DNA of 64,000 nt from Cyclobacteriaceae bacterium. Its GTDB lineage: Bacteria > Bacteroidota > Bacteroidia > Cytophagales > Cyclobacteriaceae. The stretch is taken from NCBI GenBank assembly GCA_013141055.1, contig JABFRS010000001.1, forward strand, positions 1 through 64,000. Reading direction: 5' to 3'. This document shows positions 34,936 through 53,812 of the stretch, piece by piece. A program made the position numbers and the translations under genes. The stretch's first letter is position 1, and every line of letters begins with the position of its first letter. The notes under the pieces were generated by a model. That model made no database searches and was not told the DNA's origin. It saw nothing but the letters and a program-made list of their open reading frames with translations.

Positions 34936-34946
34936 AGTAAGAGATT

Positions 34947-35318: not shown

Positions 35319-36641
35319 CTACTTACGCGTCTTTACATGACTGATAATGAAGTCTCCTACATTCTTCCCCTGCTTCATGCCGTTTTCAATTGCCGCACGA
35401 TAATGGATTCCGCCATAGATCCTGCTCACAGAGGCTTCCTGAGCTGCCTGGTTAAACGATGCGAAGTTGCGGGCTGTCAGACCAAACTCAGTTTCAGTAG
35501 AGTCTGTGTAGGCAAAGTTATCACCCAATAACCCTGTCAGAGTAGTTGCTGCGGACATAGAAATTACGCTATGACCAGAAGTGTATTCAGGAAAGGGAGG
35601 AGTCTGCAGCAACGGTACCCAATTCTCATCAAGATACTGATTGATATAGGTTTCAGGGCGGATTACTTTACTGCGATATTTTTCATCCCAGCATACGATA
35701 AATCCATCTACCAGAGAAAGAGCAACACGCACATATGCTTCCGCGGAATTAACAAAGTCTTTTTTTGCCATCGTACAGGTAACACGGGTGATGTTCATCC
35801 AGTGACCTCCCGGGGAAATCTTTTTATTGGAGAACATAACATGACCTCTGACATTCATTACAAAAGGATTACAATCCCAGAAACTTGCAATTTGTCTTTG
35901 CTCATCAGATAGATTAACGCCAATGTTATAAACTTCACTGGCCTCTATAAAAAACTGACTTTTCTTGTCGAAAGAGAATGTTACTGCAGGTGCTGGCCTG
36001 AACTGAGCAGCAGAATCAATCACAAATGTTCTGATCTTGTTCCAATGTGGCTCTACGGCGTCGATATATCCGGGTGGCGTTGGTTTCCATGAACCGGCAT
36101 CACTTTGAATAGTATACTTTGGAAAGGAACGCGATTGTTTATAGTTGTCTTTTGAAGACCATTTGAGAATGCGGGTAGCCACTTTACCACCATACTCAAT
36201 TGAATTATCAAAAACCTCGTCTGGCAATCCTGCGTCCTTAAAATCGGTCATCATTTTCTGATAGAACTCTTCCATCTTATCCTCAGAAAATACAAGAGTC
36301 TTTCCGATGATCAATGCAGCATGAACGGAAGCAAGCGGATAGCAATACTCTTTTCCTGCTTCAGGTTGAGGGATAGAATCCAAGCCGTTCAGTTGACCTG
36401 ACAACGATATAAATTGGGGGTCAGCGTGTCGCCCGGCTTCGTATGCTGCTACACTCGTATAGGCATAGATACGACTGGCTACTGGAGGGGAAAATATATC
36501 ATAAACAATCCTGTCAGTAACCTGCTTGATTGCTCTGTGAAGAAATTCAGGGTCATTTACTTTCTTATCGTATTCAACTTTCTCTGTTGAGCATCCAAAG
36601 AGTACAAGAAGTAATAAAACTAAGGCTAGAGGACGATTCAT
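35319..36641 (-). CDS. Vanadium-dependent haloperoxidase-like (PAP2 fold) lipoprotein
   Basis: 440 residues. Lipoprotein signal MNRPLALVLLLLVLFGCS (Cys17). The vanadate/phosphate-binding pattern is present: Lys321 to Arg328-Pro (KYRSKVIRPE), SGHS (355-358) and SRIYGGIHYR (406-415) with the axial His. Members are vanadium haloperoxidases or acid phosphatases of the same fold; motif alone does not decide. It is attached to an outer or inner membrane facing outward. The gene follows the GH65 hydrolase by 26 bp, at the end of the SusCD/CRTAC1 block. Confidence 0.88.
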   Translation of the reverse strand: MNRPLALVLLLLVLFGCSTEKVEYDKKVNDPEFLHRAIKQVTDRIVYDIFSPPVASRIYAYTSVAAYEAGRHADPQFISLSGQLNGLDSIPQPEAGKEYCYPLASVHAALIIGKTLVFSEDKMEEFYQKMMTDFKDAGLPDEVFDNSIEYGGKVATRILKWSSKDNYKQSRSFPKYTIQSDAGSWKPTPPGYIDAVEPHWNKIRTFVIDSAAQFRPAPAVTFSFDKKSQFFIEASEVYNIGVNLSDEQRQIASFWDCNPFVMNVRGHVMFSNKKISPGGHWMNITRVTCTMAKKDFVNSAEAYVRVALSLVDGFIVCWDEKYRSKVIRPETYINQYLDENWVPLLQTPPFPEYTSGHSVISMSAATTLTGLLGDNFAYTDSTETEFGLTARNFASFNQAAQEASVSRIYGGIHYRAAIENGMKQGKNVGDFIISHVKTRK

Positions 36642-36667
36642 ACTTCAAAAATAGAACGATTTGTATA

Positions 36668-38695
36668 TCACTTAACAGAATAGGTGGTTTTATTTACCCC
36701 TACTCCCCTTACTTCAAGCGACTTCCATCCTTTAGGAATTTTCGTTTTAATCTGAGTAATACCTGCATCACTGATCGTCAATCCACCAAACCCATTCAAA
36801 ACTGCCTGAAGAAAACCTCCCGCGCCTGTTGCAAAATATGGATTAGTACCGCCCGCTGTTTCTGCGATCACACCAAAAGGTGGAACTTCATTCGGCTTAT
36901 ATGATCTGGCAAAAAGTTCTGTGGCTTTATCAAGATTACCCAATCTGGAGTAAAGGGTTGACAGTGCGGAGATGCCCATAGCCGGACCTTCAGGAGAATA
37001 TCTGGGTTCGTAATACTTGAGATCCTTTTCAATTTGAGCTTTATCAGATATGAAGTCAAGCGGATAAGCCAGCAGATTTACATCCGCCTGCTTGATCATG
37101 ACACCATCATATGTTTCGTTCTCTTTAGTCACGCCATCGGGAAACTTAAGAATGGGAATATTCTGAGCTACAATCTCCCAATCCGGATTGGGTACCAGAC
37201 CTAATTCTTTTGAAGCCTGAGTTGCATAACGTAATGCGGTAATTGCCATTGCATTTGTAAAAGCATTGTTATCAATATTCTCCTGCCACTCATTCGCACC
37301 GATCACATTGTTAATCTCATAGCGGCCAGGTCCTTTTCGCTCTACCCTGCTTGCCCAGAAGTCAGCAACTTCCTTTAAGACAGGATAACCACGATCACGA
37401 AGCCACTGCTTATCCTTTGTTACCTGATAATATTTCCAGAACGCCCATGATACGCATCCGCTGATATGATGTTGAAATGGACCCGTCAATGCCCATACAG
37501 GAGTATCCTCTGTTCCTTCGTCAGATGATTCCCAGGGAAACATAGCACCTTTAAATCCATGAGAGAAGGCATTCTTTTTCGCAGCCTCCAATCTGTTAAA
37601 TCTGTATTCGAGGATTGATTTTGCAATCTCAGGCTGCAACAAAAGTATTGGTGGATACATCCATAGTTCAGTATCCCAGAACACATGGCCATTATATCCT
37701 AATCCTGAGAGACCCATTGGTGACAAACTGTACCCAGTACCTTCCCGCACAAATGAATACAAGTGATACAATGCAAAGCGAACATCCTTCTGCATTTGAA
37801 CATCTCCATCAATTACGATGTCACTTTTCCATAACTTCTCCCACTCTGCATTGTGCCGGTTCAACAATCTCTGCGTTCCTTCGAGTCTTGCAAAAATTGT
37901 CAGCCTTTCAGCTTCATTCATTGGATCATTATACTGCTCTGTCGATGTCAATGATGAAACGACGCTAAATGAGTAAGATTCACCTGCCTTCAAAGACTTG
38001 TTGAATTTTGCAAGGTGCATGTTGTAATCCCAATCTTCATGGATAATCACCGGCTCTTTACCATGTGGCTCATTAAAAATGATGCTATTGCTTGCTGCAA
38101 CTGTGTGCTTGCCGGAAGGGCTTTTCCCAACAGAAGTCATCAAAGGAATTTTAACATGAGGTCTGTCAATCTCACTGTAAACATTTCGAACATCTACAAG
38201 ATGGTTAGGAGATTCAATAACACTCATGGGGGTGAGTGCCACATCTTTTTTTGCTTTTATCTCAACAATCGACAAAGCTGTATAGGGTAAATGACGCAAG
38301 GCCATCATAGAATGTTTAACAGTAACTTTATCTCCCACATCAAAGGTTGTTTCCAATGATGCCTTCTTCATATCCAGAACCTGCCGGTAATTTGAAATAT
38401 CCTTAATACCAATTCTGCGGCCGTCGACCTCAAGATTCATATTCACAGAATTGAAGGTTTTAAGAATATTGGAAACGCGTCCTCTCTGATAATAATCATA
38501 TACACCGTTCAGCACAATATCACGAACCTTCATTGGCTCTGGTGAGGATACCAATCCAATCATCCCATTTGCTACGGTGACTCCATAATAATTTGCTGGG
38601 TCAATTCCCTTAGCCTCAACCTGCCATGGATTGGTGTTTTGTGAAAAACTCAGGCAGGCGATCAATAGCAATGGAAGTATAAAGATGTTCTTCAT
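36668..38695 (-). CDS. Exported GH65 hydrolase (kojibiosidase/trehalase-like)
   Basis: 675 residues with a signal peptide (MKNIFILPLLLIACLSFSQ, cut about 19). GH65 (alpha/alpha)6 barrel: HVFWDTELWMYPPILLL (337-353), WALTGPFQHHISG (401-413), IGANEWQEN (465-473) with the presumed general acid Glu469, and AETAGGTNPYFATGAGG (611-627) with Glu612. That second Glu motif is typical of GH65 hydrolases that use water; phosphorylases lack it. The nearest characterised type I recall is a Flavobacterium kojibiose hydrolase. ATGA overlap with the upstream CRTAC1-like gene implies coupled translation. Trehalose or another alpha-glucoside is possible. Confidence 0.88.
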   Translation of the reverse strand: MKNIFILPLLLIACLSFSQNTNPWQVEAKGIDPANYYGVTVANGMIGLVSSPEPMKVRDIVLNGVYDYYQRGRVSNILKTFNSVNMNLEVDGRRIGIKDISNYRQVLDMKKASLETTFDVGDKVTVKHSMMALRHLPYTALSIVEIKAKKDVALTPMSVIESPNHLVDVRNVYSEIDRPHVKIPLMTSVGKSPSGKHTVAASNSIIFNEPHGKEPVIIHEDWDYNMHLAKFNKSLKAGESYSFSVVSSLTSTEQYNDPMNEAERLTIFARLEGTQRLLNRHNAEWEKLWKSDIVIDGDVQMQKDVRFALYHLYSFVREGTGYSLSPMGLSGLGYNGHVFWDTELWMYPPILLLQPEIAKSILEYRFNRLEAAKKNAFSHGFKGAMFPWESSDEGTEDTPVWALTGPFQHHISGCVSWAFWKYYQVTKDKQWLRDRGYPVLKEVADFWASRVERKGPGRYEINNVIGANEWQENIDNNAFTNAMAITALRYATQASKELGLVPNPDWEIVAQNIPILKFPDGVTKENETYDGVMIKQADVNLLAYPLDFISDKAQIEKDLKYYEPRYSPEGPAMGISALSTLYSRLGNLDKATELFARSYKPNEVPPFGVIAETAGGTNPYFATGAGGFLQAVLNGFGGLTISDAGITQIKTKIPKGWKSLEVRGVGVNKTTYSVK

Positions 38696-41600
38696 TTTAC
38701 AATATTTTTAAACCCGACGATGGCTTGATTGTTCCTTGAAACTAGCACAATTTTCTCTTTCTTGAAATTATTAACTATTTGAATATCACGCACTTCACCA
38801 GTAATCAGTAATCCCGACAACATAGGATCAACGGACTTCCATCTTCCAGTGCCATCTCCGGTCATGACCAGCCCAATACTGCCATCATAGGGACCAAAAT
38901 CAGGTTGGGTAGCAATAAGATTTCCTCCGAGTATGATATCCAACCGTCCATCGTTGTTAAAATCTCCAGCGTCAATGGCATAAACCGGTGAGCTCTGTGC
39001 TTCTCCTGGCAAATCAGACCGAATTAGCTTACCATTTCTGTTTTCAATATAGGATGAGGCGAAAACATCAACATGCATTTCCGCAGAGTTTCCCTTTTGT
39101 TGAGGCGTGATGATACTTTCAAGAATTACATTTCGATAGTCGGTGTATTTCAGGAACTTCTTTTTTAACATCGGTATCTGCTTGACCAATTGATCACGCG
39201 AAGCAAATGGATAGCTTTTATCCCCATTATAGTAAACCAGAATATGATCGGATCCACCGTTGCTGTCAAAGTCGCCCAGATACATTTTTACTGGCTTCTC
39301 TGGTGATGCTTTTAATCTCGAATTGAGACCGAGGTTTCCAACAATAAAATCATCATCACCATCCTTATCAAAATCCGATGCAATGATCACGTTCCACCAG
39401 CCATTGGTTTGTTTCATTCCAAATTCTTCTGTCCGATTTTCAAACTGATGAAGATCGTTCTGAATTAATACAGTAATTGGCATCCACTCTCCTACCAGGA
39501 TTAGATCAGGTTTTTTATCAAGGTTAACATCAGTCCAGATCGCATCCTTAATCATACCTGGTTTCACCATCGTAGGATTATCAAAACGACTGTTCCCTAA
39601 CCAGTTGTTGATCATTGAAAAACTTCCTGTTCCATCATTGCTTAGCAAAAAACTAGTTGGGCTCATCCCATAAAGAAAAGGGATGACGCTTGCTCCGATG
39701 AAAACATCCATATCGCCATCCTGATCGAAGTCACTGGCCTTGATGCAGGATGCATTGACTATAAATCTTGGCAGGGCTGATTCTTCATTCTTGAAAATCC
39801 CTTTTCCATTATTACGGTAGAATCTTGGCTTAAGATCTTCAGGGCTTGATTGTGGATTTTGTCCTCCTGACGCAACCATTAAATCGAGATCGCCATCACC
39901 ATCAGCATCAAAGAACTCCGCGGCAATGTCTTCACACTGGGCACCTGATTTAAACGCTTCATTATTAAAATTCGTCCACGCTCCTGATTTTGTTTGAATG
40001 AAGAGTCCCGCAGACTGATCTCTTCCACCACCAATAAATATATCTACCAGTCCGTCGCCATTAACATCACCTTTTGCGAGCGGTGGCCCCTGAGTTGTTA
40101 ACATGTGAGGGATAAGTCCTTCATTATTGAAAGCATTAACGTCATCCTCTTTGTGAGCAAATGATGGTGTTTCATTTAGGGAAAGAGGTTGCAGTAAGGT
40201 CCTCGTTGACCGGAGTGATTGATAGTTAAAATTACCGGAAGCTTGCTTTTCATCAACCGTGATCATCTGGTTACTCCTGACATTGATCATCTTTTGAAAG
40301 GCTCCACCGGGCCAGATGATAAAGAGTGAATCAATAGACTTCACGTGACCTAAACCCACATTGAGTCTTGTGTCAGATGATGAGCAGAATCCGCGTGAAG
40401 AAGAAACCTCCTGATAAGTAATGTTGCCTTGTGAGTAAGCAATAAGTTTACTTCCCAGCCCTTGCTTGTTGGCCCTTGATCCCTGAAAATTCACTTTCAA
40501 GTATGATGAATCATTTGAATTATTTACATACAAATAAGCCTTCTCATTTAAGTTGTTCACGATCAGGTCGAGATCGCCATCGTTGTCAAGGTCGGCATAT
40601 GCTGAGCCATTGGATATTGAAAATCTGTCAAGCCCCCAGTTCGAAGTGGAGTCCGCAAACTTCATTCCATCACCATTCTTAAAAATGAAATTTGATACTT
40701 TGCTCTTAGGCATGGCATCCAAAATATCCATATCACCTTTGTCCATTGTTTTCAGAGAATCCTGAATGGCCTGATTGGAAATAAAGTTGATATAGTCCAT
40801 ATCGTTAGGTCTGCGCAGAATTCCATTTGTTATGAACATATCTTTCAATCCATCATTATCAAAGTCGGCAAGCAAAGGAGACCAACTCCAGTCCGTTGCA
40901 TCAACTCCTGATTGAGGCGCGATATCGTTAAAAAATACAGAAGTATCTGAAATGCTTCTATTAACCTGAAGGCAATTCCTGGCTACCTGATAGTGATATC
41001 CATACTTTAATTTGAACTTGTAAATTTCATAACCATCCTCTCCAGCCGATGTTTTTATAATGGATTCATCTCTTGGTAGCATATCGAGACTAACGATGTC
41101 TGACCTTCCGTCATTATTAAAATCAGCAATATCCACACCCATGGAAAATCTGCTGGTATGAGGCATCGATTTTTCCAGAACCTGTTTGAAAGTCCCATCC
41201 TTTTTATTGATGTAGAGGTAATCATTCTCCTGAAAATCATTTGACACATAGATATCAGGGTAGCCATCGAGGTTGATGTCTGAAACGCCAATACCTAGAC
41301 CATACCCAAGACGGCTACTAAAAATCCCAGCTTTACTGGTGACATTGGTGAACTTCGCTGATGGCTTTTGGGAATCATTGGTTGTCAGATCATTCCTGAA
41401 CAGGATGTCGCCACTTAAAGAATCTGTATCCAATCTATGGGAAATTGTTACGTAGGATCCCGCACTGTGTACAGAGTGATTTAAAAGATAGCAATCAAGA
41501 TCACCGTCGAGATCATAGTCAAAAAATATTGCCTGCGTGGATCGACCTGTAAAACTCAAGCCATACTCTTCCGTCCGGTCTGTAAAGGTGAGATCACCAT

Positions 41601-42057
41601 TATTGATCAATAATTGATTGGTTGAATTGAATCCCTTGTACTTTCCAACGCCACATACATAAATATCTACAAATCCGTCGCCATTAACGTCTGCCATGGT
41701 TACACCAGTCTTCCAGTTTCCCAGGCCGATAACTCCGGCCTTATCCGTAATGTCCTCAAACTTGAAGTTGCCCTTGTTCAAATAGAGCTTATTGGAGTTT
41801 TGATTGGAAGAAAAGTAAAGGTCAATCAGGCCATCATTATTGATATCACCACAGGCAACACCACCTCCATTATAGAAATAGAGATATTCAACAATGTTAA
41901 AATTTTCATCTTCCAGAAGATCGTTGCTGAACTCTACTCCGGAAGTACTGGCAGGAACGAGAGAAAATCTTTTGGAATCGCTACTGTTTTCCTTGCAAGC
42001 CACCAGAAGCAAGCTGACAAAAAGCAAAGAGCATCCGTAGCGGAAAAATCTTATCAT
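38692..42057 (-). CDS. CRTAC1-like giant lipoprotein A (VCBS/FG-GAP repeats + ASPIC/UnbV)
   Basis: 1121 residues. Lipoprotein signal (SLLFVSLLLVACKE, Cys21). Many FG-GAP/VCBS blades carry Ca-binding loops such as DINNDGLIDLYF, DVNGDGFVDIYV and DFNNDGRSDIV, giving beta-propellers. An ASPIC/UnbV domain lies at about 515-600 (SRGFCSSSDTRLNVGLG, IIWPGG). More propeller repeats follow. Probably exposed on the outer membrane. Its start overlaps the stop of paralogue B (ATGA), and its stop overlaps the start of the GH65 hydrolase (ATGA). Function is unknown; binding of glycan or partner protein is inference. Confidence 0.9.
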   Translation of the reverse strand: MIRFFRYGCSLLFVSLLLVACKENSSDSKRFSLVPASTSGVEFSNDLLEDENFNIVEYLYFYNGGGVACGDINNDGLIDLYFSSNQNSNKLYLNKGNFKFEDITDKAGVIGLGNWKTGVTMADVNGDGFVDIYVCGVGKYKGFNSTNQLLINNGDLTFTDRTEEYGLSFTGRSTQAIFFDYDLDGDLDCYLLNHSVHSAGSYVTISHRLDTDSLSGDILFRNDLTTNDSQKPSAKFTNVTSKAGIFSSRLGYGLGIGVSDINLDGYPDIYVSNDFQENDYLYINKKDGTFKQVLEKSMPHTSRFSMGVDIADFNNDGRSDIVSLDMLPRDESIIKTSAGEDGYEIYKFKLKYGYHYQVARNCLQVNRSISDTSVFFNDIAPQSGVDATDWSWSPLLADFDNDGLKDMFITNGILRRPNDMDYINFISNQAIQDSLKTMDKGDMDILDAMPKSKVSNFIFKNGDGMKFADSTSNWGLDRFSISNGSAYADLDNDGDLDLIVNNLNEKAYLYVNNSNDSSYLKVNFQGSRANKQGLGSKLIAYSQGNITYQEVSSSRGFCSSSDTRLNVGLGHVKSIDSLFIIWPGGAFQKMINVRSNQMITVDEKQASGNFNYQSLRSTRTLLQPLSLNETPSFAHKEDDVNAFNNEGLIPHMLTTQGPPLAKGDVNGDGLVDIFIGGGRDQSAGLFIQTKSGAWTNFNNEAFKSGAQCEDIAAEFFDADGDGDLDLMVASGGQNPQSSPEDLKPRFYRNNGKGIFKNEESALPRFIVNASCIKASDFDQDGDMDVFIGASVIPFLYGMSPTSFLLSNDGTGSFSMINNWLGNSRFDNPTMVKPGMIKDAIWTDVNLDKKPDLILVGEWMPITVLIQNDLHQFENRTEEFGMKQTNGWWNVIIASDFDKDGDDDFIVGNLGLNSRLKASPEKPVKMYLGDFDSNGGSDHILVYYNGDKSYPFASRDQLVKQIPMLKKKFLKYTDYRNVILESIITPQQKGNSAEMHVDVFASSYIENRNGKLIRSDLPGEAQSSPVYAIDAGDFNNDGRLDIILGGNLIATQPDFGPYDGSIGLVMTGDGTGRWKSVDPMLSGLLITGEVRDIQIVNNFKKEKIVLVSRNNQAIVGFKNIVK

Positions 42058-45000
42058 TTGATTTTGAGGAAAACAGGAGTGTCATTATTTCTGCTGATGA
42101 CGAGCATGTCATCCTTGCCAACTTTTATTTTTTTAATGTCCCTCACCTCTCCGTCAATCAGCAGCCCTGATTCATGATTCGGAACAGTAGTGAATTTTCC
42201 TTTTCCATCACCCTTAAGAAAAGTTCCATAGCTCGCATCATAGCGCCCTACCTCTGGCTTTGTTTTGTAAAGATTTCCGCCAAGGAGTATATCGCTATTT
42301 CCATCCTTGTCCAAATCATCAATAAGAATTGCAAACACAATTGACAACTGTGCTTCCATAGGAAGCGCTTCGATTGTAAATTTCCCCTTCCCATCATTTA
42401 ACAGTAATGAAGTTGCAAACGTATTTGCTTTAAGTTCAATTGACTTAGCCATTTGCTCAGGTGTAAATATTTTATCAATCGTTGCATCCTTATAGCTATC
42501 ATACTTCAAGAACTTCTTCTTCAAAGAAGGTATTTGAGAGATCAGATCATGCCTTAGAACAACAGGATAACTTTTATCCCCGCTATAGGCACAGAGTATC
42601 TGTTCAATAGTTCCATTCTGATCAAAATCACCCACGAACATACTCACGGGTTTTTCCACACTTGCTCTGAATCTGGAATTCAAGCCAAGATTACCGACCA
42701 CAAAATCAATATCTCCGTCATGGTCTACATCTGCTGATTCAATGCAGTTCCACCAGCCTTGTGAAAGATCTAATCCATTCTCTTTTTGCTCAGAGAAGTT
42801 TCCTTTGTTATTGAGGAACACTTTGACATTCATCCACTCGCCTACAATCAGCAAGTCCTCATCCTTGTCTCCGTCGATGTCAGCCCAGGACGAATCAGTG
42901 ATGAGACCAATATTCTTTAGTCCCGGTGCAAGTTTGTCTGTTTGATCTGAGAAATTACCTTTTCCATCATTGATAAGGATATAGCCGTTCACTGGCATGC
43001 CGTAACTAAAGAGCTTTAATCTGACACCCACAAACAGATCCATGTCTCCGTCTCCATCAATGTCAGTTGATGTAACAGTTGATTTACTTTGAAACTCTGC
43101 TACTGGCAATATCTGCTTTGATTTTTCAAATACTCCACGACCGTCGTTAAAATATAACCGATCAAACAGAGCGCTGGATCCTGAAGAGAATTCATTTCCA
43201 CCACTGCAGACATAGAGATCAAGATCACCATCGCCATCTGCATCAAAGAATGTACTTTCAATGTCTTCCGATCCTTTATCTTCTTCTAAAATTTTTTCAT
43301 TTACTTTTTTGAAGGTTCCCTTTGCAGATTGAGTGTAAAGAACGCTTGATTGTTCTTTCGGAGCACCGATAAAAAGATCATCGAGTCCGTCTTTGTTTAT
43401 ATCAGCGACACTTATCTTCGGACCTTCGGTGCTTACCATGTGATAGATTAAGCGGTCGCGGTCAAAATCAACAAATTCATTTTCAGTTTGTTTAAAATCA
43501 ACACCTAGTTTATTTGAGTTTACCTCTTTAAATAGACCATTACCTTCAACACCTTTTCCTGAAACAAAAGGTTTTCCCGCAGATGATTCCAACGTGAGTG
43601 TTTGATTGGTTTTGACAGAATCCAATTGAGTAATCGTACCATCTGGCCATTCTATAGTAATCTTATCTACAGAAGTAAGGGAGCCCAATCCGAGGTTGGG
43701 ACGGAAATCGACTGTGCTTTCAAATCCGCGCATTGGCATCTGTTCCAGATAGAATTTTTTACCCTGATGCTCAGCTGTAATCTTTGTTCCGAGTGCCTGT
43801 AAATTTCCACCAGAACCCTTTAGTATAAATTTCAAATAATGATTCTGAGGTACTAATTTCTCTGCGTTATTCCTGTACAAGTATGATGGCATGTTAACAT
43901 TGTTAACGATAAAGTCGAGATCACCATCGTTATCCAGATCGCCATAGGCACTGCCATTTGAAAATCCGGCTTCCTTACCGATCCAGGCAGAAGACATATT
44001 CTCAAAACCAAGATTTCCTTTGTTCCTGAAGAAATGGTTAGGTATTGGATTGGATGGCATAACGTCAATCAATTTTCTGTAATCCACCTTATCACCGCTC
44101 ACTATCATTTTAACGAATTCCTCGCTGCTTGCATAGGAAAGAAAGTCCTGGTTGGTAAGATCCTGATAAATACCATTGGCAACGAAGATGTCTTTCAATC
44201 CATCGTTGTCAGCATCAAACATCAAAGCTCCCCAACTCCAATCAGTTGCTTCGACACCTGCAAATCTTCCAATTTCACTGAATGATTGACCCTGGTTGCT
44301 TACCTGCAGCATATTTCTTGTGAACTGGTGGAAGTAATCATTTGTAACTCCATACTGATAACGGTTCCAGTTATCAAAAGTGGTGACAGTCTTTATTCTT
44401 GAGTTTTCATTTGGCAACATCTCTGTGACAAACAGATCCGGAAATGCATCGTTATTGACATCTGCAAGATCGGCTCCCATAGAAGCTGCACTGATGCTTT
44501 TCATCGTGGCCGGAAGACATTCCTTAAAAGTTCCATTTTGATTATTGATGTATAAATAATCACGTTCGAAGAAGTCATTCGAAACATAGATGTCCTGCCA
44601 GCCGTCTTTGTTAATATCGCCTACTGTAACTCCCAGTCCGAAGGCAATGACACTTCCAAATATTCCAGCTGATTCACTGACATCTGAAAAATGTCCTTTG
44701 TCATTTCTTAATAATTTATGGCCACCTAACACATCACGCTTTCCTCTTTCATTTTTGCGCAAGTTGAAGCTTCCGATAGATTGGTATGAATTGTTGAGAA
44801 TGTATAAATCCAGATCTCCATCTCTGTCATAATCAAAAAAGACTGCGTGGGTGGAGAAACCCTTGTCCGCTACACCATATTCTTCAGCTCGTTCGGAGAA
44901 CGTCAGATCACCGTTGTTGATGAATAGTTCATTTTCACGGTCGTCACCTTTTACATCACCGGAGTTACAAACATAAATGTCTGTCCAACCGTCACCATTT

Positions 45001-45392: not shown

Positions 45393-45399
45393 TTCTATG

Positions 45400-45999
45400 T
45401 TATTTCACACCGGTATGAACAAATCTATGATTCAGGATATCCTGAACTTCAATAGCCATGCTCTGTTTATCGATTTTTTGAAGAAGGATTCTCCTGTTAC
45501 CATCTAGTTTAACGAGAATATCCTTTTCTCCTACTTTAGTGGTGATGAATTCGTTACCATTATACCATTTCATCAAAAGTTGCTTTGTCTTTCCCTCCAA
45601 ACTATCAGTCTGCATTCCTTTCGCCCATGGAGCCCATAACTCATAACTCAATTCCATCCTCATCTCTGCTATCCTATCAGTTGAATCATACCCCGGCATG
45701 AAAAGCAATCTAAGTTTCGTCGGCTCGGAGTGAACTAAAGAGTCAACAAAAAGATACTGCACTGATTGGCCATTAGGACCCTCCATCACCAGATGAGCCG
45801 CATTTAAATCAAAGCACCTTCCATAAAATTCCTGGCGGGTGAAGCCGAATGGTATACCTAGCAAAATCGAATCATACCTTACACCTTTGGCCAATTCTCT
45901 TTTGACCAATTTGGTATAATCTGATTGAAAACAGCTTGTCAATGCCAGCGCTAATAATATCAGGCTAGTGGGATACTTTAAAAACTTCCAGGTCATCAT
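45400..45999 (-). CDS. Unknown lipoprotein within the CRTAC1-like array
   Basis: 199 residues. Lipobox LALTSC (Cys23). No known domain; the mature part is mixed alpha/beta with conserved-looking aromatic residues (GIPFGFTRQEFYGRCFDLN). It overlaps the 3' end of the frameshifted CRTAC1-like gene by 35 bp and ends 7 bp before paralogue B, so it is part of the operon. It may be a partner lipoprotein for the array. Either of two adjacent ATG codons (45999, 45996) may start it. Confidence 0.75.
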   Translation of the reverse strand: MMTWKFLKYPTSLILLALALTSCFQSDYTKLVKRELAKGVRYDSILLGIPFGFTRQEFYGRCFDLNAAHLVMEGPNGQSVQYLFVDSLVHSEPTKLRLLFMPGYDSTDRIAEMRMELSYELWAPWAKGMQTDSLEGKTKQLLMKWYNGNEFITTKVGEKDILVKLDGNRRILLQKIDKQSMAIEVQDILNHRFVHTGVK

Positions 46000-47605
46000 T
46001 ATGTTTAGCGAATAAAATGTATTTCGTTCCTTTTACTTCTACAAATTCTATGTCTCTTATCTGGCCTTTTACATTCAAATCGATACCCCGATTAAATGTG
46101 AACTGACCATCCTTTAATACCCCTTTAAAGAACCATCCATTGGAGGCATCATAACGTCCAAATTGGGGTTTTACCTGGTACTGATTTCCACCCGCAATTA
46201 CGTCTTCCACCCCATCATTGTCAAAGTCTGACACGGATAAACTGTAAATTGGAGAATACTGAGCTTCCAATGGAAGTGCCATTCGCGAATACCCTTTTGC
46301 CCCTGAAAGCAATAACGTTGACGCTAGCACCTTTACCTCAAAAACCCGGGCTTCGTCAAGTACTGCTTTTGGAAAAATCTCATCTATTGATTTCTTACCA
46401 TAATCCTTATAATAGAGCAGTTTCTTTTTTAACGACGGCATCTGGGATAAGAACTCATCCTTATCAACCAATGGAAAATACTTTCCGTTGATGCTGGTGC
46501 AGTAGATTTGCTCCAAAGAACCATTCTTATCAAAATCACTGACATACATTCTATCTCCGTTTTTGAAAAATGTGTTGAGTCCATGATTTCCAAAAACAAA
46601 ATCAATCTTCCCGTCCTTGTTGAAATCACCTGATTCTATATCGTGCCACCAGCCCTGGGTATTCGTTAAATCAAATTCAGCAGAAACGTCCACAAAGGTT
46701 TTATTCTTGTTCTGAAGAAATGTGATTGGCATCCAATCACCGGCAATTACAATATCACTCCATCCATCGCCATTAAAATCCTGAACTTCAATATCCGTTA
46801 CCATTCCAATTTTCTGAAGACAGGAGGCAAAATCTTTTGTAACATCTTTAAATGCTCCATTCCCATCATTCTCCAATAGGAAAACCTTTCCACCGATACC
46901 ATAAACGAACGGATCAAATCTTTCTCCAACCAAAATATCTTCATCGCCATCCTTGTCGAAGTCAATAGAGGCAACTGCGCTGGTGGAAATAAATCCAATG
47001 GAAGGAAGTGAAACAGGTGCTTCCGCAAAATTTCCATGTCCGTCATTCAGGAAAAGTTTGTTGAGCAAGGCATCGGATCCCTGGGAAAAAGATCTTCCCC
47101 CTACTGCCATTATAAAATCAAGGTCACCGTCCTTGTCAACATCCAGAAAAAGTGCTTTCGTTTCTTCAGACGCGGAATATTTTGCAAATGATTTAGGAAG
47201 CGACGTCTTTAGTTTTTGATCTTTAAAGTTAATGAGCAATCCACCCTGATCCCTTCCACCGCCTACATACAGCTCTTTAATGCCATCTCCGTCAATATCT
47301 CCTTTTGCCAATGAAGGGGTTTCATTGCTGTACATCATTGGCAACAATCTGTCACGATTGAAATCAACCACATTGCTACTTACATGCTTGAAAACCGATC
47401 TATGGACCAACTCCAGATGGAAATTGGTATTTTTCTTCTTCAGAGCATTATAATCATGAGGATTACTTTGCTCCTTTATGATAGAGACCTTTCTATTCAC
47501 CGGCAAATTATAAACTGTCGAATAAGTATTATCAGTCCAGTTGATCACAAGGGAATCAATGTGTTTTATATCCGTTCCGAGTCCAATTGTAATATTTGAT
47601 TGCAC
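45965..47605 (-). CDS. CRTAC1-like protein C, C-terminal half (separated by frameshift)
   Basis: This frame opens at 47635 and its first GTG is at 47605. It encodes the end of the ASPIC/UnbV domain (RGFQSCVQSNITIGLG, LVINWTDN) and the second set of FG-GAP repeats (DIDGDGIKELYV, DVDKDGDLDFIM, DFDKDGDEDILV). It has no signal peptide of its own and starts in mid-domain. It is the natural continuation of the upstream frame at 47566-49239; joined they give about 1090 residues, like paralogues A and B. It is therefore read as half of one broken gene, not an independent protein. Confidence 0.8.
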   Translation of the reverse strand: MQSNITIGLGTDIKHIDSLVINWTDNTYSTVYNLPVNRKVSIIKEQSNPHDYNALKKKNTNFHLELVHRSVFKHVSSNVVDFNRDRLLPMMYSNETPSLAKGDIDGDGIKELYVGGGRDQGGLLINFKDQKLKTSLPKSFAKYSASEETKALFLDVDKDGDLDFIMAVGGRSFSQGSDALLNKLFLNDGHGNFAEAPVSLPSIGFISTSAVASIDFDKDGDEDILVGERFDPFVYGIGGKVFLLENDGNGAFKDVTKDFASCLQKIGMVTDIEVQDFNGDGWSDIVIAGDWMPITFLQNKNKTFVDVSAEFDLTNTQGWWHDIESGDFNKDGKIDFVFGNHGLNTFFKNGDRMYVSDFDKNGSLEQIYCTSINGKYFPLVDKDEFLSQMPSLKKKLLYYKDYGKKSIDEIFPKAVLDEARVFEVKVLASTLLLSGAKGYSRMALPLEAQYSPIYSLSVSDFDNDGVEDVIAGGNQYQVKPQFGRYDASNGWFFKGVLKDGQFTFNRGIDLNVKGQIRDIEFVEVKGTKYILFAKHNDDLEVFKVSH

Positions 47606-49239
47606 ACAACTTTGAAATCCCCTGGTAACGTAATGTCACCTACAAACTCATTAGTCCCGCAATAAACTTTAATATTCGCTCCCGTTTCAAAAGTATTTTT
47701 ACCTTTTGACGACAGTGAAACCGTAATACTTTTATACTTAGAAGAGTCGGAATTATTCCGATATAGCACGGCTGATGCATTGATATTGCTTACAACAAGA
47801 TCCAGGTCGCCATCATTATCAAAATCTCCGTACGCGCTCCCGCTTGAAAACATGGGGTCTCCCAGTCCCCAGGCAACAGCAGAATTTTCGAAATTCAGAT
47901 CGCCTTCATTTCTGAAAGCATAGTTAGGAAAGGTAGAAGATGGCATTAAATCAATCAGCTTCAGGATTGCATGCTTCTCCTGTTTTATTATTTCTCTCAC
48001 ATTATCCTTTTCACCTGTGTAGGTGAGGTAATCCCGATCCAATAAATCCTTATAAATGCCATTAGCTATGAAAATATCCCTCTTACCATCATTGTCCATA
48101 TCAAACAGCAATGCTCCCCAGCTCCACTCCGTTGCTGATATCCCGGCCAATCTTCCGACTTCTACATAGTTATCAGATCCAGTCTTTTTATGCAGAACAT
48201 TTCTTGGAAACTGGTGATAATACCCGTTTTCAAGATTCAATTGATATTTATTCCAGCTCTCGAAAATGGTTTTTGTTTTCTTTCGGTTTAAAGAATCCGG
48301 AAGCATCTCCGTTACAAAAAGTTCAGGATCACCATCGTTATCAAGATCTGCAAAGTCTGCTCCCATGGATCCCATACTGATGGATTCAAAATAATCTGTT
48401 AGGGATTCCTTAAATGCGCCGTGCTGATCATTGATGTACAGGTAATCACGTTCAAAGAAATCATTCGAAACGAAAATGTCGATCCATGTATCATCATTAA
48501 AATCTCCCAACGTAATTCCCAATCCAAATCCAATATCACTTCTGTATATTTTTGCCTGTTCAGAATGGTCTTTGAACTTTCCGTTATCATTAATAAAGAA
48601 CCTGTTACCACCCAAAGTATCCGGAATATTCCGATGATCCTTAACAAGGTCATAAGCACCAACAGACTTGATTGAATTGGTTAAAAGATAGCAATCAAGG
48701 TCACCATCCTTGTCGTAATCAAAGAATGATGCCTGAACAGAAAGTCCGGTAATATCCAGGCCGTACTCTTTCGATTTTTCACTGAATGTTAAGTCCCCAT
48801 TATTGATGAACAGTTCATTATTCCTATGTTCTCCAACGGGGTTTCCTGACTTGCACACGTAGATATCAAGCAATCCATCAGAGTTAATATCGGCAAAGGT
48901 CACTCCGGTCGACCAAACACCCTTACAGGCCACTCCCGCCTGATCTGTAATATCTTTAAATGTTAAACCTCCTTGGTTCAGATATAGCTTGTTATCTACC
49001 TGGTTTCCGGCTAGATAAACATCCAGTAATCCATCATTATTGATGTCACCAATGGCTACGCCGGCACCATTGAAAAAATTGCGATAAGTATATGGATTGA
49101 ACTGATCTGTAAAAGTGAGATCGTTCTGAAAGTTAATTCCAGACTCTTTGGTAATATTTGAAAATAATGTGTGAGGTGATGAATGATCATTTGAGCAGCC
49201 CCACAAAACAACCAGCACCAGAATCTTAAAAAATTTCAT
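47566..49239 (-). CDS. CRTAC1-like protein C, N-terminal half (separated by frameshift)
   Basis: 557 residues. Lipoprotein start MKFFKILVLVVLWGCS (Cys15), FG-GAP loops (DINNDGLLDVYL, DINSDGLLDIYV, DYDKDGDLDCYL, DFNDDTWIDIFV), the shared ATEWSWGALLFDMDNDGKRD block, and the first part of ASPIC/UnbV. The last correct residues are about TLP; then the frame leaves homology (GDFKVVCNQ..) and stops. A minus-one shift after CCA (47625-47623) restores RGFQSC. First CRTAC1-like gene after susD, just after a terminator. Confidence 0.82.
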   Translation of the reverse strand: MKFFKILVLVVLWGCSNDHSSPHTLFSNITKESGINFQNDLTFTDQFNPYTYRNFFNGAGVAIGDINNDGLLDVYLAGNQVDNKLYLNQGGLTFKDITDQAGVACKGVWSTGVTFADINSDGLLDIYVCKSGNPVGEHRNNELFINNGDLTFSEKSKEYGLDITGLSVQASFFDYDKDGDLDCYLLTNSIKSVGAYDLVKDHRNIPDTLGGNRFFINDNGKFKDHSEQAKIYRSDIGFGLGITLGDFNDDTWIDIFVSNDFFERDYLYINDQHGAFKESLTDYFESISMGSMGADFADLDNDGDPELFVTEMLPDSLNRKKTKTIFESWNKYQLNLENGYYHQFPRNVLHKKTGSDNYVEVGRLAGISATEWSWGALLFDMDNDGKRDIFIANGIYKDLLDRDYLTYTGEKDNVREIIKQEKHAILKLIDLMPSSTFPNYAFRNEGDLNFENSAVAWGLGDPMFSSGSAYGDFDNDGDLDLVVSNINASAVLYRNNSDSSKYKSITVSLSSKGKNTFETGANIKVYCGTNEFVGDITLPGDFKVVCNQILQLDSERI

Positions 49240-49242
49240 CGC

Positions 49243-49282
49243 TTAAAAAGAGAATAGCGCCCAACTAAGTTGGACGCTATTC
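49243..49282 (-). terminator. Intrinsic terminator between susD and the CRTAC1-like array
   Basis: On the minus strand GAATAGCG-CCAAC pairs with GTTGG-CGCTATTC (49252-49282, one mismatch) and is followed by TCTTTTTAA. It lies after the susD stop and ends only a few bases before the CRTAC1-like C start, so it probably lowers expression of the downstream array relative to susCD. Confidence 0.85.
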
Positions 49283-49305
49283 AAAATTACAAAAAGTAAA
49301 CAGGC

Positions 49306-50838
49306 TTAGTTAGTTGGGTAACCAGGGTTTTGAGTAAGACCTGCACCCGGAACCTGCATTTGCTGCAATGGAATCGCCATTAGGTTAAAATTAGGATTAT
49401 TAACCGCTGGTTTTTCCCACCAAGCATTACCATAAGCTCCAAAACGAATCAAATCTGAACGTCTTAAGCCTTCAATGAATAATTCTCTTCCGCGTTCAGC
49501 CAGGAATTGACCTGCAGTAAGTGATACAAAAGGAGTCACCCCTGCTCTTGCACGCAAGATGTTAACCGTTGCCAGTCCTGTTGCATCTCCGTAACCATTC
49601 ATTCTGAACAATGCTTCTGCCTTGTTCAACAGAACCTCACTCCATCTCAATAATGGATAGTCATTATCCATGCTTTGACGTTGTTTCAACTTGAAGCTGA
49701 ATTTACCTAGACGGGCACCCGCCTGACGTGAAGAATTAGGAAATAACTCGTTGATTTTAGGCGTATAGTTAATTGGAGCTCCATCCTCATCAGCTTTATC
49801 GAAAGCCAAGTCAAGAATAGGGTTACCAGCAACATCTACCTGAGGTCCTACAATGAAGTTGTTAGTTCTTCTCTTATCAGCAGGATCATAAGAATTATAA
49901 AACTCTTCAAGAGTAGCATAACCGTTCCATGGTTGCTCTGCAAGGTTGTAAGTCAACTGGCTCGGATAGTGAAGCGTCATCTGAGCGATATTCATACCTG
50001 TTTGAGTTGTTTCATCAAAAGGAACAACGAAGATATGCTCAACGTTATCAAGGTTTCTATAGCTGAAGATATCCTTATACTCCGGAGACAAGCTGAAAGC
50101 TGCACGATTGATCACGTTATTAGCCATTGTAACCGCATCAGCATAACGAGGAGTACCAGTGTAAACCTCTGCATTCAAATAAAGTCTGCAAAGAAGTGCC
50201 CATGCCGCAGATTGGTTTCCACGTGCATAATCACCTTTACCCGCTGGAAGATCAGGAACCGCTGCAAGAAGTTCAGTTTCAATGAAATTGAAGATTGTTG
50301 TTCTACTTACTTGAGCACCAGTATTGCCAGGTAGCGTAGAAAGTTTTACGTTACCAAACATATCACACAACCTCCAGTAGAAGTAAGCACGCAGGAATCT
50401 TAATTGAGCAACCTTAGCAGGATCGCTTGCCACCGTTGGCAAGATATCATTGCATTGGAAGATACCAGCATAAGCTTGATTCCAGGCATCATTGATAGAA
50501 GCTGTAACAGGGCTTAACTGATGTTTGTGAAGCGCAATATAAACACCTCCGTCAAACCAGTCGCCACCTTTTTGAGCGATTACTGCTTCATCCGTTCCAA
50601 GCTCAGAAGCCTGGAAGAAACCTCCATTTGTAGCAGTTCCATCAGCAAGCTTTGTGAACGCACCAGACAATCCGTCTGTAGGGGTTCCCTTATTCAAATT
50701 ATCTCTAACACCCACACCAGGGTTAAGAACGGGAGCCGCAGTCGTAAAATTACTCTTGATCTGCTCATCCAAGTTGGTACACGAGAGTACACCAAACATG
50801 AGTGCAGTTATCGATGTGTACTTTATAAATTGTTTCAT
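49306..50838 (-). CDS. SusD/RagB-family nutrient-binding lipoprotein
   Basis: 510 residues. Lipoprotein signal with Cys near 20 (ALMFGVLSCTNLDE). TPR-like helical core of the SusD family; SAAWALLCRLYLNAEVYTGT (about 209-228) and the C-terminal RGRELFIEGLRRSDLIRFG (about 460-475, starting AERGREL) are signatures. It forms the surface lid over the SusC barrel and binds the oligosaccharide. It lies 22 bp downstream of susC. The ligand is likely an alpha-glucoside given GH65 and GH31 neighbours. Confidence 0.95.
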   Translation of the reverse strand: MKQFIKYTSITALMFGVLSCTNLDEQIKSNFTTAAPVLNPGVGVRDNLNKGTPTDGLSGAFTKLADGTATNGGFFQASELGTDEAVIAQKGGDWFDGGVYIALHKHQLSPVTASINDAWNQAYAGIFQCNDILPTVASDPAKVAQLRFLRAYFYWRLCDMFGNVKLSTLPGNTGAQVSRTTIFNFIETELLAAVPDLPAGKGDYARGNQSAAWALLCRLYLNAEVYTGTPRYADAVTMANNVINRAAFSLSPEYKDIFSYRNLDNVEHIFVVPFDETTQTGMNIAQMTLHYPSQLTYNLAEQPWNGYATLEEFYNSYDPADKRRTNNFIVGPQVDVAGNPILDLAFDKADEDGAPINYTPKINELFPNSSRQAGARLGKFSFKLKQRQSMDNDYPLLRWSEVLLNKAEALFRMNGYGDATGLATVNILRARAGVTPFVSLTAGQFLAERGRELFIEGLRRSDLIRFGAYGNAWWEKPAVNNPNFNLMAIPLQQMQVPGAGLTQNPGYPTN

Positions 50839-50860
50839 TTGTTTTTCCTTTTACTTGTTA

Positions 50861-53812
50861 TTATAGACCAATGTTCAAACCAAAGGTGAATGTCCTAGAA
50901 GTAAAGTAGTTATTCCTTCTATCAATACCTGGAGATAATACATCCGCAGGAGTTGTAACAGGGAAACCACCATTATCAGTAGTACCTGGATCAGCCAAAA
51001 CCGGTTCTGGATCGATTCCAGTATAACTTGTGATCACAAACAAGTTTTGACCGCTGAAGTACACTCTTACGTTTTTAACTGCGCTTGAAGAACCCATTTT
51101 GAAATTATATCCAAGAGTTAGGTTATCAAGTTTCAGGAAATCTGCTTTTTCAACATACAATGAACTGAACTGTGCTGAAGTAAGGCCTGCAACAGCTTTG
51201 CTAGTCGCAATTCTGTTATAAGAGTTGATCGCACCTGGATCGATTGGCTCATAGAATGCGCGGAAGTTGTTCACAAGGCTGTGACCAAATGCACCGCGGA
51301 AGAATACGTTCAAATCCCAGTTTCTATAAGTCAATTGATTTTTCCATCCTAATTCCAGAGAAGGAATACCTGAGCCAAGTTGTTTAAAATCTGCAGTCTT
51401 TAGAAGAGAAGAAGCTTGGTCAGAAACCACCACTCCATCTCCATTCAAATCAGCAAATCTTGGTGCTCCGTTACCTTCAACACCTGCAAATACAGGTCCC
51501 CAGATCTGACCAATCTCTTCACCCACTTTAACACGGATGATGTTTGTACCATTTTGTCCTGGTGCACCTAAGTTGGCTCTTACCTGCTCATCGATAATGA
51601 ATGACTCAAGCGTTGTTTTATAGCTACTCAATACGATTCCAGGAGTCCAGCTGATTTCTCCGAAGCGAAGGCTATTGTAATTCAAAGACAATTCAGCTCC
51701 ATTTGTCTTTAAAGAACCGGCATTTTCTGTGCGCAATGAAGCTCCATAAGTTGCAACTTCCACAGTTCTCTCAAGAATGAAGTCATTGATATTTCTTGTG
51801 TAAAGATCTAATGTACCACTAAGCTTTCCACCAATACTGAAATCTATTCCAAGATTGATTTCCTGCTTTTGCTCCCACTTAAGGTCTTTGTTAGCTGCGC
51901 GTGTTTTTGAAATACTACCGCCACTAGCAAAACTATATGAGTATAAATCCTGAGCTAAACCTGCATCATTAGGAAGAGATCCTGTTACTCCATATCCAAC
52001 ACGCAATTTAAGCATATCAAATTTTTCAAATTGGAGATATTTATTCAGGTCAACTCCTAAACCAACAGCAGGAAAAATTCCGTACTGGTTGTCTTTACCT
52101 AATTTAGTTGAACCTTCTCTTCTAATAGAAGCATTGAAGAAGATTGCATTGTCAAAAGTCAAGTTTACTCTTGCGAATGTTGCGATGATACGGTTATTAG
52201 GAGAAACGCTACTAGTAACGTTTGTATTATCTAAAATACCTGAAATTCTGTCTCCTGAATTTCCAATCGCATTGTAACCAAGAAGATCATTTGGAAAATC
52301 TCCTAATTGAATGAAGATATCCTGGAACTTGTCTTCCTGGAATGAATATCCAATAGATGCGTCAAAATTGATCTTGTTAAAAGTCTTGGAGTAAGTTCCA
52401 TATCCCTCAAACAATGAGAATGTTCTGTCTGAAGTATATCTTCTTGCCAAACCACCACGATTGTATCCTCTGAAAAGTGAAGCTCTTGAATAATATTCAC
52501 CATTCAATACAGTTTCATTTTGCTGACCCGCATTAACAGTCAATGTGATGTTATCAGTAATGCTATAATCAACCTTTGCATTGTAGTTCATGGTCTTCTT
52601 CTTTCCTTCGTTAATGTTTTGATCGATGATCGCTACAGGATTGAAGTTATCAAACAAGATCGCCTGATAGTAGTTACCATTAGGGAATTTAACAGGAGCC
52701 GTCGGGTTAAACAACACAGCATAACGCAACGCATCATTAAATGAGAAATTGCTATTTCTGGTTGTTAATGACATGCTCAAGTCAATCTTAAGCTTATCAT
52801 TTAATGCTGAGTGTGTAATGTTTGCACGAGCATTGATCTGATCGAAACCAGATTTCTTAAGAACACCATTTACATTTCTCAAATTGGTTGATAAACGGAA
52901 TGTAGTGCTCTTGTTACCACCAGAGATCGCAATGTTATGAACATTTGAAACGCCTGTCTGAGTAACTTCCTTTTGCCAGTCAGTAACTGAACCAAGGTTA
53001 TTACCACCTGCCGCAACATATTGTGATGCAGTCATCACAGGCTGTTGATTGTAAACTGTTTGTGCAGCTACGTAACCATTGTATGTAACAGATAAAGCGC
53101 CTGTCTTAGAACCTCTTTTCGTAGTAACCAGAATTACACCAGATGATGCACGGCTACCATAGATAGCTGCCGCAGATCCGTCTTTCAATACGTTTATAGA
53201 CTCGATATCATTAGGGTCCACGTTATCAAGTGATGCTCCCAATACTCCGTCAATAACAACCAGTGGTGATGAGTTAGCACCTACAGTCGAGATACCTCTC
53301 AAACGAACAATAGCGCTTGTATTTGGGTCACCTCCTCTGTTGTAAATACTCAAACCTGCAACTTTACCTTGCAATAACTGAGTAGGATCGTTGATATTTC
53401 CTCTGTTAAAGTCCTTTGTGCTCAATGCCACAACAGAACCAGTGATCTCCTTCTTGTCCTGAGACCCGTAACCCACAACAACCACTTCTGAAAGGGCTGT
53501 TACATCTGATTGTAGTGTTGCATTCACGACAGCCTGGCTTCCCACAGCTACTTCTTGTGATGCATAACCTACAAACGAGAATACAAGCGTAGCATTTTCG
53601 CCAACGCTTATCTTATAATTACCATCCGAATCCGAAACAGTACCATTGCTGGTTCCTTTTTCGAGGATGTTTACTCCAGGTACAGATGATCCATCATCAG
53701 ATGATGTCACCTTACCAGAAACGGTCCTGCCTTGAGCCATCGACATGCCGTAGCATGCAACGAGGAACAAAACTGGCAGAACCTTTTTCACTAACAAGTA
53801 AAATTTGGTCAT
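50861..53812 (-). CDS. SusC/RagA-family TonB-linked outer-membrane transporter
   Basis: 983 residues. Signal peptide (VLPVLFLVACYGMSMAQG, cut about 26), a carboxypeptidase-D-like domain (RTVSGKVTSSDDGSSVPGVN, about 29-100), the plug domain with SEVVVVGYGSQDKKEITGSV, and NVLKDGSAAAIYGSRASSGV (SusC signature), then a 22-strand barrel ending in an aromatic-rich C-terminus. It imports glycan across the outer membrane using TonB energy, with the SusD lid. Divergent LacI regulator and operator upstream suggest substrate-induced control. Confidence 0.97.
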   Translation of the reverse strand: MTKFYLLVKKVLPVLFLVACYGMSMAQGRTVSGKVTSSDDGSSVPGVNILEKGTSNGTVSDSDGNYKISVGENATLVFSFVGYASQEVAVGSQAVVNATLQSDVTALSEVVVVGYGSQDKKEITGSVVALSTKDFNRGNINDPTQLLQGKVAGLSIYNRGGDPNTSAIVRLRGISTVGANSSPLVVIDGVLGASLDNVDPNDIESINVLKDGSAAAIYGSRASSGVILVTTKRGSKTGALSVTYNGYVAAQTVYNQQPVMTASQYVAAGGNNLGSVTDWQKEVTQTGVSNVHNIAISGGNKSTTFRLSTNLRNVNGVLKKSGFDQINARANITHSALNDKLKIDLSMSLTTRNSNFSFNDALRYAVLFNPTAPVKFPNGNYYQAILFDNFNPVAIIDQNINEGKKKTMNYNAKVDYSITDNITLTVNAGQQNETVLNGEYYSRASLFRGYNRGGLARRYTSDRTFSLFEGYGTYSKTFNKINFDASIGYSFQEDKFQDIFIQLGDFPNDLLGYNAIGNSGDRISGILDNTNVTSSVSPNNRIIATFARVNLTFDNAIFFNASIRREGSTKLGKDNQYGIFPAVGLGVDLNKYLQFEKFDMLKLRVGYGVTGSLPNDAGLAQDLYSYSFASGGSISKTRAANKDLKWEQKQEINLGIDFSIGGKLSGTLDLYTRNINDFILERTVEVATYGASLRTENAGSLKTNGAELSLNYNSLRFGEISWTPGIVLSSYKTTLESFIIDEQVRANLGAPGQNGTNIIRVKVGEEIGQIWGPVFAGVEGNGAPRFADLNGDGVVVSDQASSLLKTADFKQLGSGIPSLELGWKNQLTYRNWDLNVFFRGAFGHSLVNNFRAFYEPIDPGAINSYNRIATSKAVAGLTSAQFSSLYVEKADFLKLDNLTLGYNFKMGSSSAVKNVRVYFSGQNLFVITSYTGIDPEPVLADPGTTDNGGFPVTTPADVLSPGIDRRNNYFTSRTFTFGLNIGL

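Follow-up and report, generated by a model that had tools for sequence, protein, structure and literature searches.

What do giant propeller lipoproteins do beside a sugar importer? The question is raised by a locus on the minus strand (35319..53812) of the first 64,000 nucleotides of contig JABFRS010000001.1 of a Cyclobacteriaceae bacterium (assembly GCA_013141055.1), a stretch hereafter called the window, in which the genes for a SusC and SusD pair are followed by those for proteins resembling CRTAC1. A preliminary description had read it as three giant CRTAC1-like paralogues in tandem, made in fixed ratio with a GH65 hydrolase and accompanied by a haloperoxidase-like lipoprotein. The locus is real, and that description needs two corrections, in that C, the third of the propeller genes, is split and a gene for a small lipoprotein, here called LIP, was overlooked. 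It represents a widely recurring variant of the SusCD type with an uncharacterised family of small lipoproteins and with propeller proteins of putative role; the stress laid on the propellers was right, while that laid on the hydrolase was misplaced.

The locus starts with a SusC/RagA-type TonB-dependent outer-membrane protein (50861..53812, 983 aa; TIGR04056, 640.8 bits against a cut-off of 368.25) and the lipoprotein SusD (49306..50838, 510 aa; PF07980, 64.7 over 23.1, and PF14322). Further downstream lie LIP (45400..45999, 199 aa, with a lipobox), the twin-propeller lipoprotein B (42054..45392, 1112 aa from a TTG start or 1106 from an ATG), the propeller lipoprotein A (38692..42057, 1121 aa), an exported GH65 enzyme of the kojibiose hydrolase type (36668..38695, 675 aa, with no lipobox; NF053734, 1126.1 bits over a cut-off of 800) and VPO (35319..36641, 440 aa), a vanadium-iodoperoxidase-like lipoprotein of the PAP2/haloperoxidase-like kind. 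SusC, SusD, B, A, GH65 and the haloperoxidase-like lipoprotein stand where the preliminary description had placed them, all on the minus strand, and the sequence confirms the two ATGA overlaps that it claimed, B/A and A/GH65. Its reading of tandem giants holds for A and B, which are full-length, and not for C, which consists of two open reading frames (ORFs) instead of one protein of 1090 residues. The N-terminal piece (47566..49239, 557 aa) carries the lipobox and the first propeller, with five FG-GAP_3 stretches, and falls in the C clade described below; the C-terminal piece (45965..47605, 546 aa) lies in another frame and holds a partial ASPIC domain and FG-GAP repeats. The two overlap out of frame by 40 bases (47566-47605) inside the ASPIC/UnbV domain, and in a profile search of the source genome the interrupted ASPIC match also contains a stop. 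Between C and B sits LIP, which matches no Pfam family over cut-off and has no PDB relative by profile; its AlphaFold model is confident (pLDDT 92.6), and Foldseek against the PDB gave no significant match (best E 0.064). The 4.65-Mb source genome has seven SusD matches, one of them below cut-off, so that the locus is among few SusCD loci there; three of its four ASPIC/UnbV matches, including the interrupted one, lie at the locus.

Domains, and for B the predicted fold, place A and B in the CRTAC1-like class. FG-GAP repeats and the ASPIC/UnbV domain exceed their Pfam cut-offs in both, and the predicted structure of B (pLDDT 89.9, pTM 0.89) has murine CRTAC1 (9etn) as its top Foldseek match (E 1.3e-26), followed by multi-propeller proteins such as the SF3b and DDB1 subunits; by profile, matches of B in the PDB are confined to CRTAC1 and integrins. 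DxDxDG-type loops, which we take to be calcium sites, number 12 in A, 11 in B and five in each piece of C.

The gene order, far from being unique to the source genome, was found in many relatives. The genus search covered 58 genomes, source included, and relatives of B occur in 56 of them. The best 79 among the matches listed for B were kept as named loci and annotated, together with 40 same-genus stretches, by blastp against the window proteins; all of these were fetched via B or its paralogues, so B is present by construction, and LIP was assigned by blastp against the window LIP, which diverged copies may escape. LIP was found in 66 of these stretches, representing 59 distinct loci. Where these have enough flank, C lies 5' of LIP in 48/48, SusD in 47/48 and SusC in 45/48, and 3' of LIP are found B in 45/45, A in 42/45, VPO in 30/45 and GH65 in 7/45. 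Among the 79, 51 loci are well flanked; SusC lies upstream in 50 of these and SusD in 48, and every one of the 51 has at least two propeller genes, which bears out the proposed linkage between SusCD and a set of propeller lipoproteins. Records labelled Cytophagales, Flavobacteriaceae and Saprospiraceae show this gene order again, as do those labelled Chitinophaga (there with A absent), and because it recurs across these groups the arrangement is not a matter of chance. The closest named records among the matches listed are metagenome bins of Cyclobacteriaceae, Cytophagales and Flammeovirgaceae.

LIP alone, used as seed in 392 Bacteroidota genomes with at most 8 candidates scored per genome, gave a single match in each of 30 genomes (source included) from 16 of 178 genera. 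For the other 29 loci contents were taken from the tabulated rows, and certain stretches stop at contig ends. A B-like gene is immediately 3' of LIP in 28 (one ORF intervenes in the 29th), a propeller gene is immediately 5' in 24, SusC and SusD occur together in 19, VPO in 6 and GH65 in 1. The two sets of counts point to LIP with its propeller neighbours as the tightest unit, with SusCD as the usual companion and VPO and GH65 as accessories.

The propellers are an old set. A tree of 159 propeller proteins, built by a quick method and rooted at the midpoint, with 41 weak branches among 153 inner ones, has a branch with two distinct sides. The A side holds all 44 A rows and 14 of the 22 genes from ten SusCD-propeller loci that lack LIP; on the opposite side are the remaining 8 of these genes, together with 51 B and 42 C rows. 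Both sides are represented in eight of the ten loci, and the other two (L069 and L070) have two A-side genes each. All C rows except one (41/42) form a single clade nested among B, the exception being C of Chitinophaga japonensis, which groups with its own B. Position in the locus tracks clade, all four labels needing 5 changes compared with a shuffled mean of 84.8. That A, B and C form largely separate clades speaks for the age of the set, and the pattern as a whole suggests that the older unit is a pair of A-class and B-class proteins and that C arose later, as a copy of B, and came with LIP. In the C. japonensis locus itself (L095), A was not found, C and B are sisters, and a frame resembling a GMC oxidoreductase lies 3' of B.

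C is at least 1000 aa long in 54 of the 66 loci with LIP (a few genomes being counted twice), which leaves a programmed frameshift unsupported. Among the 12 shorter copies, eight reach a contig end, two (L035 and L049) stop after the first half and two (L101 and L127) are split. The C of about 605 aa in L035 (6561-8375) and L049 (6547-8370) corresponds to the first half alone, and the second half seems to be dispensable in some lineages. Locus L101, from Maribacter halichondriae, has SusC, C and a XylB-like gene each in two frames and is either decayed or affected by sequence errors. For the window, decay of the second half was rejected: its identity to nearer relatives is about 50-60% (64-74% for the first half), as between intact relatives, where the second half averages 54.4 and the first 66.7 over 114 pairs. 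The break is therefore recent, or a sequence error.

By a simple rule applied across homologues, a lipobox was called in 44/53 C, 55/65 LIP, 49/65 B, 47/56 A, 40/41 VPO and 46/55 SusD proteins, and rarely in SusC (1/51) and GH65 (1/11). Among the 27 loci in which no part is missing, correlations of distances are strongest inside two groups, SusC-SusD-C-LIP and B-A-VPO. Given B, the correlation amounts to 0.92 for SusC-SusD, 0.83 for SusD-LIP, 0.79 for C-LIP, 0.75 for SusD-C and 0.71 for SusC-LIP, compared with 0.47 for A-VPO, 0.15 for LIP-VPO and 0.00 for C-VPO.

A gene for a LacI-family regulator (54028..55077, plus strand; Pfam LacI and Peripla_BP) is divergent from susC and holds the same position in several relatives. 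In the spacer between the two lies an operator-like palindrome of 16 bp, TCGCAAACGATTGCGA (53958..53973), the sole exact match in the source genome, and palindromes centred on CG are present in 7 of 10 lacI-susC spacers, the window included (6 of 9 if the identical L041 and L080 count once). A regulon in which this operator also serves the glycerol or maltose genes was rejected, since neither the window nor the genome has another exact site. On the minus strand of the susD-C spacer, a terminator-like hairpin of 14 pairs is followed by a T-rich run (49252..49282), the spacer folding at -23 kcal/mol with a z of -5.5. Across spacers of 25 to 240 bases, the range to which these measurements apply (overlapping, shorter and longer junctions being excluded), z falls below -2 at the susD-propeller junction in 38/41 relatives, 15/16 LIP-seeded loci and 33/36 loci without LIP, at susC-susD in 3/19 (0/3 in the first set) and at A-VPO in 0/12. 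The arms differ in sequence among relatives, though the position after susD recurs. A hairpin special to propeller loci was rejected in view of 4/6 junctions of susD with other genes and of further susD genes in the source genome, where, among those with a next gene, it is found at L225 and L227 and not at L224, L226 and L228, which have little or no spacer; L230 has a strong hairpin after susD and no next gene on the same strand in the stretch. Propeller-propeller spacers reach the same level in 4/10 cases. The hairpin is thus common at the ends of susD genes, which fits partial termination or protection of the mRNA, and either would probably yield SusCD in larger amounts than the lipoproteins or the hydrolase. 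The available portions of PMC10994844, PMC11697453 and PMC5613140 hold no description of such a hairpin. A promoter scan was uninformative (41 matches, 50.9 in shuffles).

The hydrolase is predicted to be kojibiose-hydrolase-like. It aligns over its full length with PDB 7fe3 (799.6 bits), which we take to be FjGH65A, and its NEWQE and AETAGGTNPYF match DEWAE and SECKGGTNPYF there, keeping both glutamates that are presumably the acid and the base. Within the genus it lies within 650 bp of VPO in 27 of 28 genomes that have both selected genes (VPO matches below 58% identity or fragmentary being excluded). As a core component GH65 was nevertheless rejected, given its presence in only 7 of the 45 downstream-complete loci with LIP, and it is an exchangeable extra of the module. 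Its fixed ratio to the propellers, proposed on the strength of the ATGA overlaps, does not hold up: the overlaps, real here, are not general in relatives (10/61 B/A and 4/11 A/GH65 junctions, on uncurated start codons), and the strong hairpin after susD and the many loci without the enzyme argue against it. Viewed from the enzyme, 32 of 38 GH65 matches were used, all from outside the genus, leaving out the source genome, same-genus G048, three matches at 35-36% identity and G374 (the genome of L175); a propeller gene lies within about 10 kb in 18 of them, SusD in 15, VPO in 14 and LIP in none, and with G374 included a propeller gene is nearby in 19/33 and LIP in 1/33. GH65 and propeller loci thus meet time and again, in several arrangements, neither requiring the other. 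In L175 a GH65 gene (58%) lies immediately 5' of LIP and B, with another propeller gene, SusD and SusC on the opposite strand. In four Flavobacterium loci (L142, L146, L148 and L149) a GH65 of 43-44% identity stands 5' of SusCD, and downstream of VPO come a protein of about 305 aa (matching no Pfam family in its L148 copy), a major facilitator superfamily (MFS) carrier, a kinase of the PfkB type and a GH13 enzyme, sucrose-phosphorylase-like in L149. In other loci the neighbourhood includes a sucrose-phosphorylase-like GH13 (TIGR03852, 327.6, just below 334.4), trehalase, other GH13 enzymes, GH127 and xylose genes.

VPO aligns over nearly its full length with the vanadium iodoperoxidase of Zobellia galactanivorans (4cit/4usz, 486.9 bits for 4cit) and, in the alignment with 4cit, keeps the motifs KYRSxxIRP, YTSGHS and SRxYGGIHYR, which we take to be the vanadate site. 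Outside the core, the divergent side continues on the plus strand behind lacI with a GH31 alpha-glucosidase-like gene (55150..57546; Pfam GH31, MalA model 466.6 bits, below the cut-off of 800) and a sucrose/proton-symporter-like MFS transporter (57665..59002; Pfam MFS, TIGR01301 89.5 bits, below 511), and a 368-aa ORF at 60279-61385 matches neither Pfam nor NCBIfam. With susC and susD in tandem, GH65 and GH31 enzymes and a LacI regulator, the whole has the make-up of a SusCD-type polysaccharide utilisation locus (PUL). Beyond VPO, the stretch 22130-35000 contains glycerol genes, ROK and PfkB kinases, a beta-phosphoglucomutase, xylose isomerase- and xylulokinase-like genes and a maltose-phosphorylase-like GH65 (PDB 1h54, 808 bits). 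The glycerol channel, kinase and dehydrogenase-like genes lie at 31072..34935 on the minus strand (Pfam MIP and FGGY in the two ORFs scanned), and the latter two are presumably glpK and glpD. The selected VPO and glpK (matches to glpK below 66% identity or fragmentary excluded) occur together in 38 genomes of the genus, on one contig in 26, and within 15 kb in 25 of these 26. This suggests a catabolic island for glucosides behind VPO, with glycerol possibly as an aglycone. In L102, a Flammeovirgaceae record, glpK-glpD-aqp stand immediately after VPO in a gene order unlike that of the window.

The lipoboxes, the gene order and the descent of the propellers are observed, whereas a complex, its surface location, its regulation and its substrate are inferred. 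We hold it an even chance that the locus encodes a SusCD importer of small alpha-glucosides under LacI control, and that its accessory lipoproteins join into a heteromeric complex at the outer membrane, where substrate is captured or gated. Sugar would lift LacI repression at the operator before susC, and the susD hairpin would make SusCD exceed the downstream products. The downstream lipoproteins would assemble on the outer membrane, with C and LIP, which track SusCD in evolution, placed at the importer and the older pair of B-class and A-class proteins as a second unit. The propellers, probably calcium-binding, may capture or present the substrate, a role taken elsewhere by SusE and SusF. 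Imported disaccharides with alpha-1,2-linked glucose would be cut by GH65 in the periplasm, the glucose (and an aglycone) would then be taken in by the MFS carrier, and VPO would act in the same layer. We more tentatively entertain, at somewhat below even chances, a distinct SusCD-coupled machine built on an obligate A-B heteromer, to which one lineage has added C and a LIP of new fold, the latter docking on SusCD.

Several observations weigh against this importer complex. C is broken in the source genome itself, and SusC and SusD are not both present in 10 of the 29 LIP-seeded stretches. Operator sites with up to 2 mismatches number 13 in the source genome against 25 for a control pattern, so that only the exact site is meaningful; the hairpin also ends other susD genes, and terminator-like sites in the region (12) do not exceed those in shuffles (13.4), so that the hairpin, the longest stem listed, is to be judged by its own strength and recurrence. 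A also correlates with the SusC-SusD-C-LIP block (0.33-0.47 given B), and since the blocks are contiguous on the DNA, joint transfer may explain the co-variation partly or wholly. In SusD, acidic residues occupy three positions C-terminal to the lipid cysteine in 72-89% of proteins, while in C, LIP, B, A and VPO they reach at most about one third (except at +7 of VPO, 53%), so that this sign lends no support to surface export of these five. GH65, finally, is absent from 38 of the 45 related loci, and other enzymes occupy its place, so the module does not prescribe the substrate.

An ordinary PUL, in which each propeller is a glycan-binding lipoprotein that binds alone and forms no heteromeric complex, would account for lipoproteins downstream of SusD and for the variable enzyme cargo; we find it doubtful, as A-class and B-class proteins come together in most of the LIP-less loci of the tree (8/10) and LIP is a separate conserved partner. 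That the propellers are adhesins or matrix proteins tying the cell to particles, sharing the operon so as to be produced when sugar is at hand, seems unlikely: although the FG-GAP propellers are of the integrin/CRTAC1 type, and although marine flavobacterial proteins with FG-GAP or other repeats have been proposed to be adhesive (PMC2668756, in its available part), the conserved order, the descent with SusCD and LIP and the co-variation of C and LIP with SusCD are better suited to parts of a machine.

Two other explanations turn on the accessory genes. Alpha-glucosylglycerol or kojibiosyl-glycerol as substrate, cleaved to glucose and to glycerol that is used through the linked glycerol genes, would agree with a GH65 of the alpha-1,2 type, with the close linkage of VPO and glpK within the genus and with the arrangement in L102. 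We rate this substrate as quite unlikely, considering that glycerol genes adjoin loci without GH65 too (L042, L046, L048, L050 and L051), that only 3 of the 51 well-flanked loci among the best 79 have a glycerol gene, and that the maltose-phosphorylase-like GH65 and the beta-phosphoglucomutase of the window also point to maltose. The core might also be a peroxide/halide system, in which VPO oxidises halide with H2O2, the rest supports it and sugar is the source of reductant or H2O2. Arenibacter C-21, whose iodine uptake requires glucose, oxygen and calcium, has at least five homologues of the Zobellia peroxidase (PMC5064120), VPO keeps the motifs of that enzyme and is present in two thirds of the LIP loci (30/45). 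Such a core is very improbable all the same, with VPO lacking in 15/45 LIP loci and in 23/29 LIP-seeded stretches (some cut by contig ends), with next to no co-variation of VPO with C or LIP once B is given, and with some host records, among the matches listed, named as groundwater, fen or sludge bins.

CRTAC1-type genes adjoining SusCD recur in many environmental Bacteroidota, and a search of open-access full texts, most judged by title and abstract, found no prior work on such genes beside SusCD. If the propellers are subunits of the importer, part of the sugar uptake in soil, sludge and sea would use an unstudied machine, and if the A-B heteromer with its additions exists, it would represent an alternative both to SusE/F and to complexes of surface enzymes, one that accepts different hydrolases or phosphorylases. 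Isolates carrying the locus include Algoriphagus, Winogradskyella and Chitinophaga japonensis, and the question can be tested there. Among culturable environmental bacteria, Algoriphagus has LIP, A, B and VPO, and Spirosoma arboris has GH65 and VPO. LIP offers a clean handle, having 199 residues, a single match per genome, a confident predicted fold with no solved relative found, and a B-like gene next to it in 28 of the 29 loci found independently of the propellers.

Among known systems, the branched-dextran PUL FjDexUL of Flavobacterium johnsoniae comprises, in the available part of its description, SusR, SusC, SusD, a SusE/F homologue, GH66, a GH31 dextranase, GH97 and GH65, and the genes listed there include neither propeller proteins nor a peroxidase, the words FG-GAP, VCBS and haloperoxidase being absent from that part (PMC10316084). 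The locus has instead a LacI regulator, and CRTAC1-like proteins occupy the position of SusE/F. The ORFs scanned around it include no GH66, GH97 or SusE/F homologue, and the GH31 among them is nearest to MalA, below cut-off. Common to both are SusCD and a GH65 kojibiose hydrolase, FjGH65A (7fe3, as we take it) being the nearest solved relative of the enzyme described here. VPO differs from the Zobellia iodoperoxidase in being a lipobox protein within a SusCD operon, and halide oxidation by it is a prediction. CRTAC1 (PDB 9etn) shares with the propeller proteins of the locus the FG-GAP propeller and the ASPIC/UnbV domain, while the bacterial proteins are longer by about 500 residues, which contain additional FG-GAP repeats, and bear a lipobox. 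Compared with the starch utilisation system SusCDEF, A, B and C are propellers, unlike SusE and SusF with the folds that we take these to have, and LIP is without counterpart. What the two systems have in common is a SusC and a SusD followed by lipoproteins, as far as the available part of the source describes SusCDEF (PMC10316084).

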